Made by a program: the position numbers and the translations under genes
Source of the DNA: Tilletiaria anomala UBC 951
Taxonomy: Eukaryota; Basidiomycota; Exobasidiomycetes; Georgefischeriales; Tilletiariaceae
NCBI RefSeq assembly: GCF_000711695.1
Contig: NW_013546940.1
Location: forward strand, 20,913 to 84,912
Length of the DNA stretch: 64,000 nucleotides
Direction of reading: 5' to 3'
Notes under the pieces: model-generated
Databases searched by the model: none
What the model saw: the letters and a program-made list of their open reading frames with translations, nothing else
What the model was told of the DNA's origin: nothing
In this document: in pieces, positions 27,324 through 34,813 of the stretch
How positions within the stretch are numbered: position 1 is the first letter of the stretch
Layout of the letters: each line of letters starts with the position of its first letter

Positions 27324-30300
27324 ATGCCAAAGGAACTCAACCACGGCAGACCGCGCCTCGGTAGTCGACTGCACAGCATGCCCATTTTTCGCAAGGACAG
27401 AAAGGCTTCTGCTTCCGCCGGCTCGTCGATGCCGACAACTCACTCGGGCCCGCTCCTTTCGCCAGAGATGCACAAAGAATACATCTACCCCGATCCACAG
27501 CCCGGCCTCGGAATCAACCTACCGGCTCACTACAAGATAAGCGTTGCTGCAACTGGAGCCTCCAGCAGCAATGGCCATGGCAATGGCACGCTGGACAGTC
27601 GGTATGTAGGCGGGAGCGTCGGAGCCGCAGGTGGATACCCATCGCCCGCCTTATCGCAGGGCAGCGCATTTGACAGCCCGAATGGCAGCGCCAACGGTGG
27701 CAGCGGTACCTTTAGCTCCGCTTCGCTGCGCTCGGCCGGGCATTATACTGGTTATCCCACTATGCATGGCGAGTTGGGCGGGGGAGCAGGACCTGCAGGA
27801 ATGACAGCAGCAGGAATGGGATGTAGGCCATGGAAGAGCAAGTTGGAGCGCTTGACTGGCGAAGACGTACCTTTGTCTACGCCCAGCGTCATTATCTCGC
27901 GTGCAACCACTTCAAATACTACTGCTGGAAGATCGCAGTCGCATGCCGACCCTATCGGCACATCGTCCAACACTACCGCTTCCGACACGCTGTACAACGA
28001 CTATGCCGGTGCAGGGGCGTCGTATCCATCGACCCGTATCGCACATGCGCATGCACCTACCGGCTCGCTCAGCTCCGGCTCCGCGGATGGTTCGACGCTG
28101 CATGGTGGCGTTGGCGGCGGCGCACTGATGTTCCAATACCCCGGAACAGCCATGAGCGGCAACAGCCGGTACTGCTCAAACGGTATGCCGGTTCACCACC
28201 TCTCCTCGGTGCTCGACACGTCCGCTGAGGAGCCCGACTGCCCAGTGTGCCTCGAGCCGCTGTCGCACCGTCTGGCAGGCGAGAAGCCGCACGTCGTACC
28301 ACAATGCGGACACGCGCTGCATAACGCCTGTTTCACGGCCGTGTACGGCAGCCCCGATTCGGTGCTCGCGGCGCAGAAGCGACATGCGCTGCTCAGCGCT
28401 GCGCAGCACGCCGGCGGCACTCCCGCCACCACCGGAGGAGAGGCAAGGCAGGACTACCAGATGAGCCAGGCGCCAGGCATGTGCGGTGTCTGCAGGAGGG
28501 CCATCATACTCGGCGGTGACAAAAAGCAGAGCGAGAAGCGCGTGGCGAGTGAGTATATGCTGTGGCTTGGCTTTTCCGAGTTGAAAACAAGTGATCTCGA
28601 CGCGCTGACTGTTTGTTATGCCTACATTGCGTGTAACAGAGGCGACGGGTATAATGGGTGCTGGTGGTATGGGTGACATGTTCGACTCGACCCAGCAGCG
28701 CGAAGACCCGTCTGGCTCTGGTGTGTTAATGCGCGATGACAAAATCGAGCTGCCCCAGCGCCTGTACCACCATGCTCCTGGCATATCCAGCTCACGCGGC
28801 ATGGTCGTCCCCGTCATCCGCGCACGCCCCGAGTACGCCACCATCTACCGCCGCGACCCGACGGGAACGAACACCAAGCAGAACGTCGTCTGCGTCATCT
28901 CGGTCGAGGTGCCGAGCCGCCGGCCGGTGCCGCTGCCTTCGCCTGCTCCAACAGCGACGGCCGTGGACGGGTATGGATATTTTGCTCATCATCATCATCA
29001 GCAACAGCAGCAGCAGCAGCATCTTGGCACCATCCCGGATGGAGAAGACGAGGATTACGGGAATGCACGCGAAATGGCGTCGGCGGGAGGGTCGATGTAT
29101 ATATCCGCGCGCCGCGCGCCGAGCACAAGAAGCCGGGCAAACACGATCGACACGCAGGACTCGGAGCGCGACCGTGACCGCGACCGCGTCCTGACTACCG
29201 CGGGCGCTGATCCGCTGCCGGGTGTGGCCGAGGAAGGGCAGAACCAGCACCACCCGCGGCAGCCCAAGCAGACGCCTTCGCAGAACGGGCATGCGGCGGA
29301 TACAAACGGGAAAGGAGCAGCGTCAGGTGCAGAGGAGGAAGAAGCCGGCTTTTCGTTTGGCGCGACGCCCTCTGCCAACGAAGCGAAGAGCGACCCGTAT
29401 CGAGCGGTGACAGTGGACCTGCGGGCGCGCATCCTGGATTGGAAAGGTCACACACTCGAGCACTTTGGTCCGCTGCACCTGTACGACACGCTTAATGTGC
29501 GCCAGGACACTATCGTGCGCGAGTTCTACGTCTACCTCTTCCAGGAGGCGCTGCTCTGTGTCACTGAGGAGCGCAAACGTGGACTCAGCAAGCTCGTCGC
29601 CGCCACCGTTGCCGTGACAGGCAATGAGGACGCCGCCAAGCCGGGGCTGAAGCTCAAGGGCCGCATCTATCTGCGCCACATCAAGCGTGTTAGCGAGAGC
29701 TCTGTGGCGGGAGAGGCCAGCCTCAGCATCAAGATGGACGATGACCATCTCGACCAGTTTGTCCTCTGCTTCAACACCGAGGCGCAGGCGACTGCGTGGA
29801 GGCACAAACTCGATGAACTTGTCGACTTCATACAAACCCCCGAGAAAGCCCTCTCCGTTCCGCCCAGGCCTGGGCTGCATCCCACAATTAGCGAGCAGGC
29901 GAAGAGGGTGCCGAGCCCGGGAGCGGCCAACCAAGACGCTCTCAATCATGGCGACGCCGCGTCCATTGGGCACAGTCGCAAGAGCGTAGGCAGCAGCGGC
30001 GCTGGCAAGCACACGTCTATCATCAGTGGGAGAGCGGGCTCGGCGGGCGATGCTGCGTCCATCGCCGAGTCAACAGGCACGCGCAGGAGCATGCGCAGAG
30101 CAACCGTACGGAGCGATACCAACAACAGCAGCAGCAACAGTTGTCGATCGAGCGTCGTCACAGGGCCACGGCTACCAATTGTGCCCCTCCACCAGCAGTG
30201 GTCTGCATCCGGCGGACACGACCCGAGCAAGGAGCCTCCCGAGATTCTGCCGCATGCGCCGCTCGACCTCGTCATCATGATCTCCGTCCCGGTTGTCGTC

Positions 30301-32045
30301 GAGGCGCAGCGCAGCTCGACCGCATCGATCAGCTCGTCTGCAGCGCTTAAGCTGCGCCTTATACGTTCGTCGCTCGAGTTCATTGTCAACAATGTCGGGC
30401 CGACAGACCGCGTCTCGCTCGTCTCGTACACCGCCGGCCAGGAGGGACAGGTTCGCAAGACGCCGCTGCTCCAGCCGGCAAAGGACGCGAGCCGGCTCTG
30501 TCTGCTGCGCTTCATCGAAGGTATGGGCACAGCGGGCGACGGTGTAGACGGAAGCAGCGCCGATCCGTTCGTCGCTGATCTGTCCGGGCTCGGTGGCGGC
30601 TCGGATCGCGTCGACACCGTCACGGCCATCAACGTCGGCCTTGACATTGTCCTGCAACGGACAGTGAAGAATCCAACAACGGGCATGGTGCTGGTTAACG
30701 ATACCGCCTCCGGTCCAAAGCGCAATCAGATGGATCTCGTCATGGCTCGTGCAGAGGCCGCCAATGTCCCGATTCACTGCTTCGGCTACGGCAAAAACCA
30801 CGATCCTTCTTCGCTCTGGCTCATTTCCAATCACACGCGAGGGTCCTACACGTGAGTCGTCTGACATATGAATCCATTTCCCCCTTCACGCGTACTGATC
30901 CGCGCTATGCTCTCGGCAGGTACATTCGCGAGTGGTACCAGCTGAGAGAGTGCCTGGCGGGCTGCATCGGCTCCCTCATGTCCGTCGCGCTGACAGAGGT
31001 CAAGGTGCACGTCTCCTTGCCCGCCGACAATCGCTTCTACGTGCGCAAAGTATCCGGCGTCATCGGCTCGATAGTCTCTGCCAACGGCAAAGACGTCGAC
31101 ATCGAGCTCGGCTACCTTTACTTTGGCGATGTGCGCGAGATCTTTGTCGAGCTATCTGTCGACTTTCACGAGCTTCTCGCATACGTGGTTCCACAGCGCG
31201 TACTAGCAGCTTCAGCTGCTGCTGCTACAAAGAAAGGGATAGCTTCGAGGAGCGGGAGAACGCTGGATGGTGCTTCAGCGATGGATGACTTTATGCAACG
31301 CCTTGGCATCCAAACACTGTCGCTCACCGATGCAGACTCTGTTGGCAACGACAGCGAAGTGATGGGCAATTCGATGGTAGAGGAGGTCGCGGTGCTCGAA
31401 GTCGATGCTGGGTTCAAAGATCCTGCCACGCTTCAATCCGTCACACACATGGTTACCTCGACCGTGCTGACACTCGACGTCGACCCCTTCACGCCTGATC
31501 CGACCGCCGCCACCGAGAACTCAGCATCCGTTGTCGCGACTCTCGCCGACCCGGTATCCACTCGACGCCGCATCGAAGTGATGGTCAGCGATCTGATCAC
31601 GCGCTCACTCTTGCTCGTCTCGCGTCAGAATCACTCGCACGCCTCGCGTTTGCTCATCGAGACTCGTCGCATTGTTGAGACAGTTCTGGCCTCCATCCCC
31701 GCACCCAAGCAGGAATCGCAAGCTGCTGCGACGGCCTTCCGCACCGCCCGCGACCACATATCGCGAATGGGGGGGCCGCGCCGCCAGCGCGAGATGCTGC
31801 ACGCGCAAACGCTTGAATCCTTCCATGCCATCATTGACGATCTTGACACCCTGATTGACAGCCTAGAGCGCAACAAGTCCGGCTTCGAGCGCGACACGCG
31901 GAATCTGGGTGCTCAGCAGGCGATCTGCCTGCGTGACCAGCGCGCATGGACGACACGAACAAACACGGAGTATCTGAGGTTTGGGACGGACAACGGTAGT
32001 GCCTATGCAGCACTTGCTTACGTGCACAGTCTTCCATCGAGGTAG
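27324..32045 (+). CDS. RING-PH-VWA scaffold protein of the Ste5/Far1 type
   Basis: Three exons (27324-28548, 28640-30851, 30920-32045; introns 91 and 68 bp) give 1520 residues. In order: a disordered Ser/Gly-rich N terminus beginning MPKELNHGRPRLGS; a RING-H2 domain near residues 303-395 (CPVC, CGHALHNAC, CGVC); an acidic linker with His/Gln runs; a PH domain at about 660-805 (RAVTVDLRARILDWKGHT to WRHKLDEL); and a VWA-like domain from about 945 (LDLVIMISVPVVVEA) in which the metal-binding DxSxS is missing, followed by IREWYQLRECLAGCIGSLM and a C-terminal helical region. RING, PH and degenerate VWA in this order is the layout of Ste5 and Far1, which hold the pheromone MAP-kinase module at Gbeta-gamma. 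The role is inferred from architecture. The frame is open back to an ATG at 27096, but that part looks non-coding. Confidence 0.82.
28986..29023 (+). repeat. CAT/CAG triplet repeat encoding His and Gln runs
   Basis: Four CAT codons pass into a CAG/CAA run inside the linker of the RING-PH-VWA gene, giving about four His and seven Gln in a row with a final His. Confidence 0.9.
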
Positions 32046-32416: not shown

Positions 32417-34813
32417 TCACGCCAGCGAGGGTGAGAAGAGCTGGGGCAATGGGGCGAAATGTAAATGGTCAGTTCGGTGGCATACTCTGATCGCAGGAGA
32501 GCAGGAGTATATTCACCCCCGTAAGGTACGCGCCATAGTCGTACTTGGTCTCCTCTGCGTGTTCTCCTTGCGCTTGCGCCTCTGCGCCTTCGCTGTTGCC
32601 GGTGACATGCATTTGCGGCATGCTCTCCTTCAGGTAGTCGATGGACCCTTGCGGGAGCAGGGCCATCCGGAGGTCCAGCTCTGTGACGTATGGCTGGGAA
32701 GGCGAGAGAGGCATTTCAGTTGCTTGTAGCTCGTCGCATGCGTTTGCGACGAGAGGAGTAATCGGGACATACCTTTTCGCCCGCAAGGCCCTGGAAAGCT
32801 TCGAGGAGTTGATCGGGTGATGTCGTATCTTCGATGATTTCGCGCTGGAAGAACCATCGAATGTGCACGGATCAGCATCTCTGCATTTATGTGGGACGGA
32901 GTATAGACGCGTGGGTTTATACGCGACGCACTAAGAAAGTAAGGAAAGCGTCGTAGTTGACGCTGCCAAAGTTTTGAGAAAGCTGCAGGTGAATCTGCTC
33001 CATGTCCTCGTCGCTGTAGACAATACCCAAGCTTGCCAGAGCGCCGCTGAGCTCGGCGACACCGAGTGTGTTGGTGCTGTCCTTGTCAAAGAAGCGGAAG
33101 GTAGACTCGAACTCTTCCAGTTGCGCTGGCGTCAAGTTAGTGTGGTTCCGCGAGACAATCTATGGAATCGGTCAAGATATGGTGTCAGTGTCACGGTGAG
33201 CGACGGGCGACAGAGAGAAGGGGGGTTCTGGCAGTTGGAGCACGGGCTCACCTGATTCTCGATGAAGGCCAACTTCTTTGCGACACTGGCGACGACGAGC
33301 TCAAGCTCGAACTGAAGATCCTCCATGGTGAAGACGGTGTGGTCGTTCTCCTCGACGTTGGCCTCCCCGCACTCCCGATCGACAATCTCGATGCTGCGCA
33401 GCTCCTGCTGGATGATAGGCGCCAGGACCTGCTCCTGGATGCGCTTCACTTCCCCGCGCTGATCCTCGAGGCTTCCGAGCGCGTCCAAAGCCGAGAGGGA
33501 GGAGTTGATGGAGCGCAGGTTGCGCTCGAAGCTGTTTGCCTGCGACGCGAAGCGGACGCGCAGCGCCTCCTTTGCCTGGCGGATCTGCGCGTTGATCGAC
33601 CGCGACCGCGCGGCCTCGGCCGCGGCGAGCCTCTCCCACGCGGCGTCTAGGTCGACCTGGCGGAGCCCAGGTGCTGGGGCCCATTCGCGCAAGTGGTACG
33701 TCTTCAGCTTGGTCTGGATGTTTCCGAGCAGCGCCGCGAGGTCGGTGCGCTCCTGGACCCACGAGCGCTTTGGCCCCTGCTTGTACGCATTGAATGCTGT
33801 AAGCTCTGCCCTGGCGGCCGCGTATGCTGTGACGCCGCCAGCGGCGGCGACATGCGCGTCGGCGTCGCGCCACGCGGCATGTACATCAGCGATCTGCGCG
33901 AGGAGCGCACGTGCGCGGCGCTCATAGTCATGCTGCATCGTCCACGCGCCCTGCATGACGTCCGCGAACGTCGCGACGCGCCGCGAGACAGCCTCAGCCT
34001 GCTCCATGCTGCTGAAGGCGTGGAAGTACTGTGCGACGTACGTCATGACCGACTTTTCGTCCGGCTTGGCGCGGTCGCAAAGGTCCTCAACGTCCAGCAG
34101 TTGCGGGATGCCGAGGTGCTGCGAGGCAACGGCAAAGGCCTGGCGCGTGCATGCGTGTGCGTCGTGCTTGGGCAGCGTCTCCCATGCGATGAGGTCCGGG
34201 CGATGCCGGTGGATGAGCGCGCAGAGCGCGAGCCCGTCTTTCCAGGAGGTGGAGAAGTTTTGCACGTCAACCACCGGGTGGTAAGGCGTGGTCTTGCGCT
34301 GGCACCACAGCAGCAACCCCTCCTTGGCCGTGACGCCCTCCTCGCTGATGTCGGCGATGGTGAAGCGCAGGATGAGAGTCCAGATCATGCCGAGGATCAG
34401 CTTGAGATTGCCGTCGATGATGTCCTCGGCGCCCACGTTGGTGAGGACGACGCCGCGAGACTTGATAAAATCGAGGGCTTTGTTAACGTTCTCGGCCATC
34501 TGGACACGCATGCGCGGCGTCTTGTAGTATCTCCCGAGGGAGATGTCACCACCCATGATCTCCATCAGTTGGACGAGCAGCACGCCGTCGGCGAGGTCGC
34601 GGACCAGCGAGGTCATCGGGGGGATGTCGCGCACGGCGAGCTTGGTGTTGAGCCTGCGCCAGTCGAGGCGGTGGGGTCAGCCGCCAAAGGATGTGGAGCC
34701 GCATCGGCTCGCACGCACCATTTCGTAAACGTCTTGGCTTGCACCTCTTCCCAGCCCCTGTCGAGGTCGGGTAGGCCCATCAGCGTAGACGCACGCTTGT
34801 ACGCCGCGGACAT
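32417..34813 (-). CDS. ain1: Alpha-actinin (actin cross-linker)
   Basis: Six exons (34813-34719, 34653-33252, 33159-32932, 32844-32773, 32693-32517, 32440-32417) join in phase to 665 residues, close to S. pombe Ain1. Two calponin-homology domains form the actin-binding head (FTKWLNTKLA, then GLLLWCQRKT, WKDGLALCALIHRHRPDL). The rod is short, with about two spectrin-like helical repeats. EF-hands close the protein: TFRFFDKDSTNTLGVAEL has a full calcium-loop pattern, while YVTELDLRMALL belongs to the second, weaker pair. The protein would bundle actin filaments in the cytokinetic ring and patches. The donor of intron 3 could be GTGCGT (used here) or a site nine bases downstream, and the final 8-codon exon (LFSPSLA) is the least certain join. 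Confidence 0.92.

Follow-up and report, generated by a model that had tools for sequence, protein, structure and literature searches.

The gene at 27324-32045 (+) of the window, which is the whole 64,000-nt stretch of DNA analysed here, encodes a 1520-residue protein with an N-terminal RING-H2 domain, a central PH domain and a VWA-like domain. By its layout the protein looks like a member of a known family, the Far1-like or Fmp1 proteins, rather than a new kind of protein. It is probably a membrane-docked scaffold that links the MAPK cascade, and perhaps also Cdc24/Cdc42, to the pheromone G protein, its contacts with these partners being predicted by analogy. Three exons give 1520 codons and a stop in one spliced frame (Table 1), beginning at the first ATG of that frame after a stop, and both introns contain CTRAY branch-like sites. 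The coordinates, length and RING/PH/VWA-like layout given in a preliminary description of this DNA were found to be exact. A chance open frame is ruled out by the match of the PH domain to the PH_10 family (E 5.7e-27; 94.9 bits against a Pfam cut-off of 27.5). The gene is real and correctly read, and by its layout, from which we infer orthology, it is a Far1-like/Fmp1 family member.

Table 1. Features of the scaffold gene (window positions) and of its product (residues)
Feature	Position	Strand	Description
Exon 1	27324..28548	+	residues 1-408 and one base
Basic N-terminus	27324..27413	+	net charge +6 in the first 30 residues
RING-H2	28239..28493	+	ligands C306 C309 C328 H330 H333 C336 C387 C390; below Pfam cut-offs
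RING insert	28332..28481	+	50 residues between ligands 6 and 7
Intron 1	28549..28639	+	91 nt, GTGAGT...CAG, CTGAC at 28605; predicted from DNA
Exon 2	28640..30851	+	RING-PH linker, PH, PH-VWA linker, bulk of VWA
His/Gln run	28987..29022	+	residues 525-536, HHHHQQQQQQQH
PH domain, PH_10 family	29458..29811	+	residues 682-799; resembles the PH domain of Cdc24 from the same genome
VWA-like domain	30259..30977	+	residues about 949-1165, split by intron 2, without DxSxS; below cut-off
Intron 2	30852..30919	+	68 nt, GTGAGT...CAG, CTGAT at 30895; predicted from DNA
Exon 3	30920..32045	+	includes the stop codon
Val-rich beta-like stretch after VWA	30993..31157	+	residues 1171-1225, LGYLYFGDVREIFVEL; read from sequence
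C-terminal tail	31203..32042	+	residues 1241-1520, no known domain

The genome (18.4 Mb in 202 contigs, the window lying on contig C82) was searched in all six frames with introns ignored, and the numbers of places found are lower bounds, being counts among the best candidates scored. PH_10 was detected at E <= 1 in at least two places, the scaffold gene and Cdc24 (locus L002, C1:392579-393055). A search with exon 2 returned, among the best candidates scored, itself and one other place, the PH region of Cdc24, with 36% identity over query positions 240-347 (E 1.9e-8). Alignment of the two PH domains, in which the Cdc24 side consisted of parts of two adjacent ORFs joined end to end, gave a score of 158, while 500 shuffles gave a mean of 30.5 (sd 4.8) and a best of 54. 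Judged by these comparisons, the PH domain is most like that of Cdc24, the exchange factor bound by yeast Far1. That the gene is Cdc24 itself is ruled out: the two share PH_10 but only Cdc24, located on contig C1, also has calponin-like (CDC24-calponin), RhoGEF and PB1 domains, and RhoGEF was absent from the 12 Pfam families matching the whole scaffold protein at E <= 1. The PH region matched no solved structure at E <= 1.

In the RING, all eight C3H2C3 ligands are present. Its scores were under the cut-offs of all 11 listed Pfam families (best 24.5 of 25.2 bits), with the matches sitting on the first half of the domain; such scores are expected if the insert splits the domain. The insert had been described as long and Ala/Thr-rich. 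It is long, but its composition is Ala/Gly/Gln-rich instead (A 20%, G 12%, Q 10%, T 8%, S 8%). E3 ligases that combine a RING with a VWA are known, plant WAV3 for example, and with its full set of RING-H2 ligands the protein could be mainly a RING E3 ubiquitin ligase whose PH and VWA domains find membrane-bound substrates. We consider this unlikely, as the RING is both split and below cut-off and as PH_10, which among the best candidates scored occurs elsewhere in this genome only in Cdc24, points to polarity signalling.

Of the three domains, the VWA is the least well supported, since a whole-genome scan with PF00092 missed it: at E <= 1 no match was obtained, this gene included, although 11 of 14 control genomes matched. 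PF00092 gave E 0.039 against the whole protein and E 7.5e-4 against the 304-residue region alone (20.2 bits, cut-off 23.8), the match covering profile positions 77-168 of 174. VWA_3 against the region alone gave E 0.033 and 14.7 bits (cut-off 27). The reported loss of the metal site holds for its DxSxS part. The pattern D-x-[ST]-x-[ST] is matched at residues 431 and 481 only, both in the RING-PH linker and neither within the VWA-like region, where the first strand, read by eye, has LDLVIMISVPVVV in place of the expected DxSxS. Only this part is clearly lost; the T (DTVTAIN) and D (VLVNDT) that come later in the usual metal site could be kept.

The predicted structure of the exon 2 part of the VWA, made without an alignment, was too poor for use (mean pLDDT 43.0, pTM 0.36), as was that of the first part of exon 3 (pLDDT 35.7, pTM 0.23). 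Strands and helices in the former low-confidence model are roughly in VWA order. In a PDB fold search with this model none of 260 matches reached E <= 0.001, and no entry among the best 50 of the 260 was described as a VWA. The VWA region had no hit among solved structures at E <= 1, and the VWA together with the stretch after it found nothing in NCBIfam (E <= 10) or by tblastn against plasmids (E <= 1). The Val-rich stretch is reminiscent of the beta portion located behind VWA domains in other proteins; neither it nor the C-terminal tail had a Pfam match at E <= 10.

A net charge of +6 was reached in 9 of the 1491 overlapping 30-residue segments of the protein. Six of these nine were located, five overlapping the N-terminal stretch and one at 890. 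By analogy with the PM motif of Ste5, the basic N-terminus may be a stretch that binds the membrane. The linkers were said to carry His/Gln runs, and a single run was found.

The RING-PH-VWA order has been published for BcFar1 of Botrytis (RING 134-186, PH 428-566, VWA 632-812) and its orthologues AN5167 and NCU07565 (PMC4010548). BcFar1 is shorter (1173 aa), its RING has 53 residues compared with 85 here, and the long low-complexity linkers distinguish our protein from all three. A basidiomycete protein, Fmp1 of Cryptococcus (CNF00230 in Cryptococcus deneoformans, at least 1690 aa), has PH, RING and vWA domains, in an arrangement described as similar to Ste5 (PMC9790007); the likeness to our protein is one of domain description, not alignment, and partner binding was shown in Cryptococcus. 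According to the same paper, deletion of Fmp1 almost abolished cell fusion in two Cryptococcus species, more than 91% of the genes affected by Fmp1 are also regulated by the MAPK Cpk1, Cpk1 was pulled down by Fmp1 735-1690, and deletion of NCU07565 causes a mating defect in Neurospora (PMC9790007). The view that such scaffolds are rarely studied outside ascomycete yeasts is fair, but they are not unstudied, as Fmp1 is required for mating and binds Cpk1. The names Far1-like and Fmp1 seem to stand for one family, because both papers, the only two in the literature searched that contain this gene name, mention NCU07565, and because BcFar1, of which NCU07565 is an orthologue, was found by way of yeast Far1p (PMC4010548, PMC9790007). 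Far1 has no mention in the main text of PMC9790007, which is also the only paper from 2022 on that uses the name Fmp1 among the matches listed. We noticed no study of a Far1-like/Fmp1 scaffold in smut fungi among the matches listed. Cote and others, in mBio in 2011, are said to have described a single Far1-like protein in basidiomycetes and Pezizomycetes, which would make the present finding expected.

Alternatively, RING, PH and VWA-like domains may have been gained independently of yeast Ste5/Far1, and the likeness would be convergence. Reciprocal BLAST found no orthology of Fmp1 with Ste5, the predicted vWA differs markedly, and the two were suggested to be remote or not homologous (PMC9790007). 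BcFar1 has very low overall similarity to Far1p, with the RING alone conserved (PMC4010548), and the VWA match in our protein is weak. However, BLASTP with yeast Far1p in Botrytis gave a single match, BcFar1 (PMC4010548), and the domain order is identical. We regard convergence as very unlikely.

Ste5_C (PF12194), which presumably covers the Fus3/Ste7-binding VWA, was not among the 12 Pfam families that matched the whole protein at E <= 1. It was not found in the genome at E <= 10 either (0 of 1 genomes), a search in which no control matched; the model may be narrow. The protein had been called a Ste5/Far1-type scaffold. This is partly supported: the RING-PH-VWA order is right and agrees with the published layout, but Far1-like/Fmp1 is the better name. 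The lack of a match to Ste5_C is a point of difference from Ste5.

Genes for several presumptive partners were found in the genome. One place for a STE3-type receptor was found, in three pieces on contig C145, and G-gamma lies in two pieces on contig C2. A Ste11-like kinase on contig C161 consists of a Ras_bdg_2 frame (L007), in which a very long Gln/His tract precedes Ras_bdg_2, and of kinase-domain frames that follow this frame directly. Solved structures gave no match at E <= 1 to the Ras_bdg_2 region and none at E <= 1e-40 to one of the kinase pieces. The MAPK motif TEYVATRWYRAPE, a pattern for EYVATRWYRAP, was present in four kinase loci (L012, L013, L014 and L015). L013, the only one of the four compared with solved structures, had yeast FUS3 as its best match (E 9.5e-131), and L012 and L015 have a kinase domain by Pfam. 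In the stop-to-stop frame of L014, read with introns disregarded, TEY is preceded by a long stretch rich in Ser and Ala, and the tail is long. STE2, Mating_N and Ste50-SAM were not matched in the genome; no control genome matched the first two, so those results are uninformative, and no control matched Ste50-SAM, so that result says little. With one STE3-type receptor found, a basidiomycete host, as taken for granted in the preliminary description, is plausible.

We reject the reading of the scaffold as a mating-locus gene, since the sole STE3 place found is on C145 and the scaffold gene on C82, and since no pheromone-pathway family was found in the 18 neighboring ORFs scanned. The window contains 24 ORFs of at least 250 aa, of which three belong to the scaffold gene, and the scan covered 18 of the other 21; six of these 18 had no match at E <= 0.001. 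The next gene, at 32917-34634 (-), has CH domains followed by an EF-hand-like frame and, read by eye, looks like a protein of the alpha-actinin or fimbrin type. Other ORFs between 4136 and 63504 of the window match FGGY kinase, ORC2, SDR, M28/TFR_dimer peptidase, Rad17, HLH, ATP-dependent DNA ligase and a phosphodiesterase family; matches to P450 and GH79C lie below cut-off.

In yeast Ste5, the RING-H2 binds G-beta-gamma, the membrane is bound through the PM motif and the PH domain (PMC4824985), and Ste7 through the VWA (PMC8022970). A RING-H2, a PH domain, a weak VWA-like domain and a basic N-terminal stretch occur in our protein, whose anatomy, on this analogy, fits the Ste5 plan. Saccharomyces cerevisiae Far1, likened to our protein by description, is a RING and PH scaffold for G-beta-gamma and Cdc24 (PMC4824985, PMC4010548), and a PH domain is common to Far1 and Cdc24 (PMC4824985). 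Yeast Far1 also acts as a Cdk inhibitor. We propose that binding of pheromone to the STE3-type receptor would free G-beta-gamma, which would be bound by the RING-H2 of the scaffold, while the PH domain and basic N-terminus would keep the scaffold at the plasma membrane. The PH and VWA domains would hold the Ste11-like kinase, its MEK and a Fus3/Kss1-type MAPK for activation in order, and the scaffold may also bring Cdc24 to the site, as Far1 does.

We counted in favor of a scaffold the presence of RING, PH and VWA-like domains in the published order, the mating and Cpk1 data for Fmp1 and the partner genes in the genome. Counted against it were the VWA, below cut-off and missed by the genome scan, the absence of Ste5_C, the similarity of BcFar1 to Far1p in the RING only, the lack of an obvious phenotype on BcFar1 deletion (PMC4010548), the finding of no reciprocal-BLAST orthology of Fmp1 with Ste5 and of a differing predicted vWA, and the lack of a Ste50-SAM match, where no control matched. 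The closeness of the scaffold PH to that of Cdc24 also suits a Far1-type polarity scaffold only, linking G-beta-gamma to Cdc24/Cdc42 and leaving the kinases to a Ste50/Ubc2-like adaptor. Homologues of Ste50, Ubc2 in sugarcane smut (PMC9530204) and Mst50 in Magnaporthe (PMC10429497), have been credited as adaptors. A role confined to polarity is possible but doubtful, given that Fmp1 binds Cpk1 with overlapping transcriptome effects (PMC9790007) and that BcFar1 deletion caused no polarity defect (PMC4010548). Because this explanation and the MAPK scaffold overlap in the Far1 job, their probabilities need not total one.

No Far1-like/Fmp1-type scaffold other than the one described here was detected among the best candidates scored in the genome. 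Since only one such protein was found, the MAPK scaffold may do the jobs of both Ste5 and Far1. We tentatively extend this, with rather less than even confidence, to fungi with a single Far1-like protein, in which one scaffold would combine both jobs and its PH domain, related to that of Cdc24, would hold a Ste11-type kinase as well as the membrane. If this is true, a single molecule would determine where polar growth occurs as well as the output of the MAPK. In two papers Ste5 is considered to be missing beyond Saccharomycotina or to have no distinct homologue in other fungi (PMC9790007, PMC10429497), and fission yeast is described as having neither Ste5 nor Far1 (PMC13144348). The family has been studied under two names, Far1 (2014) and Fmp1 (2022), and the gene described here looks like a further member. 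Taken together by way of NCU07565, the Far1 and Fmp1 proteins suggest that scaffolds of this sort are widespread in fungi beyond the yeasts and can be tested there.
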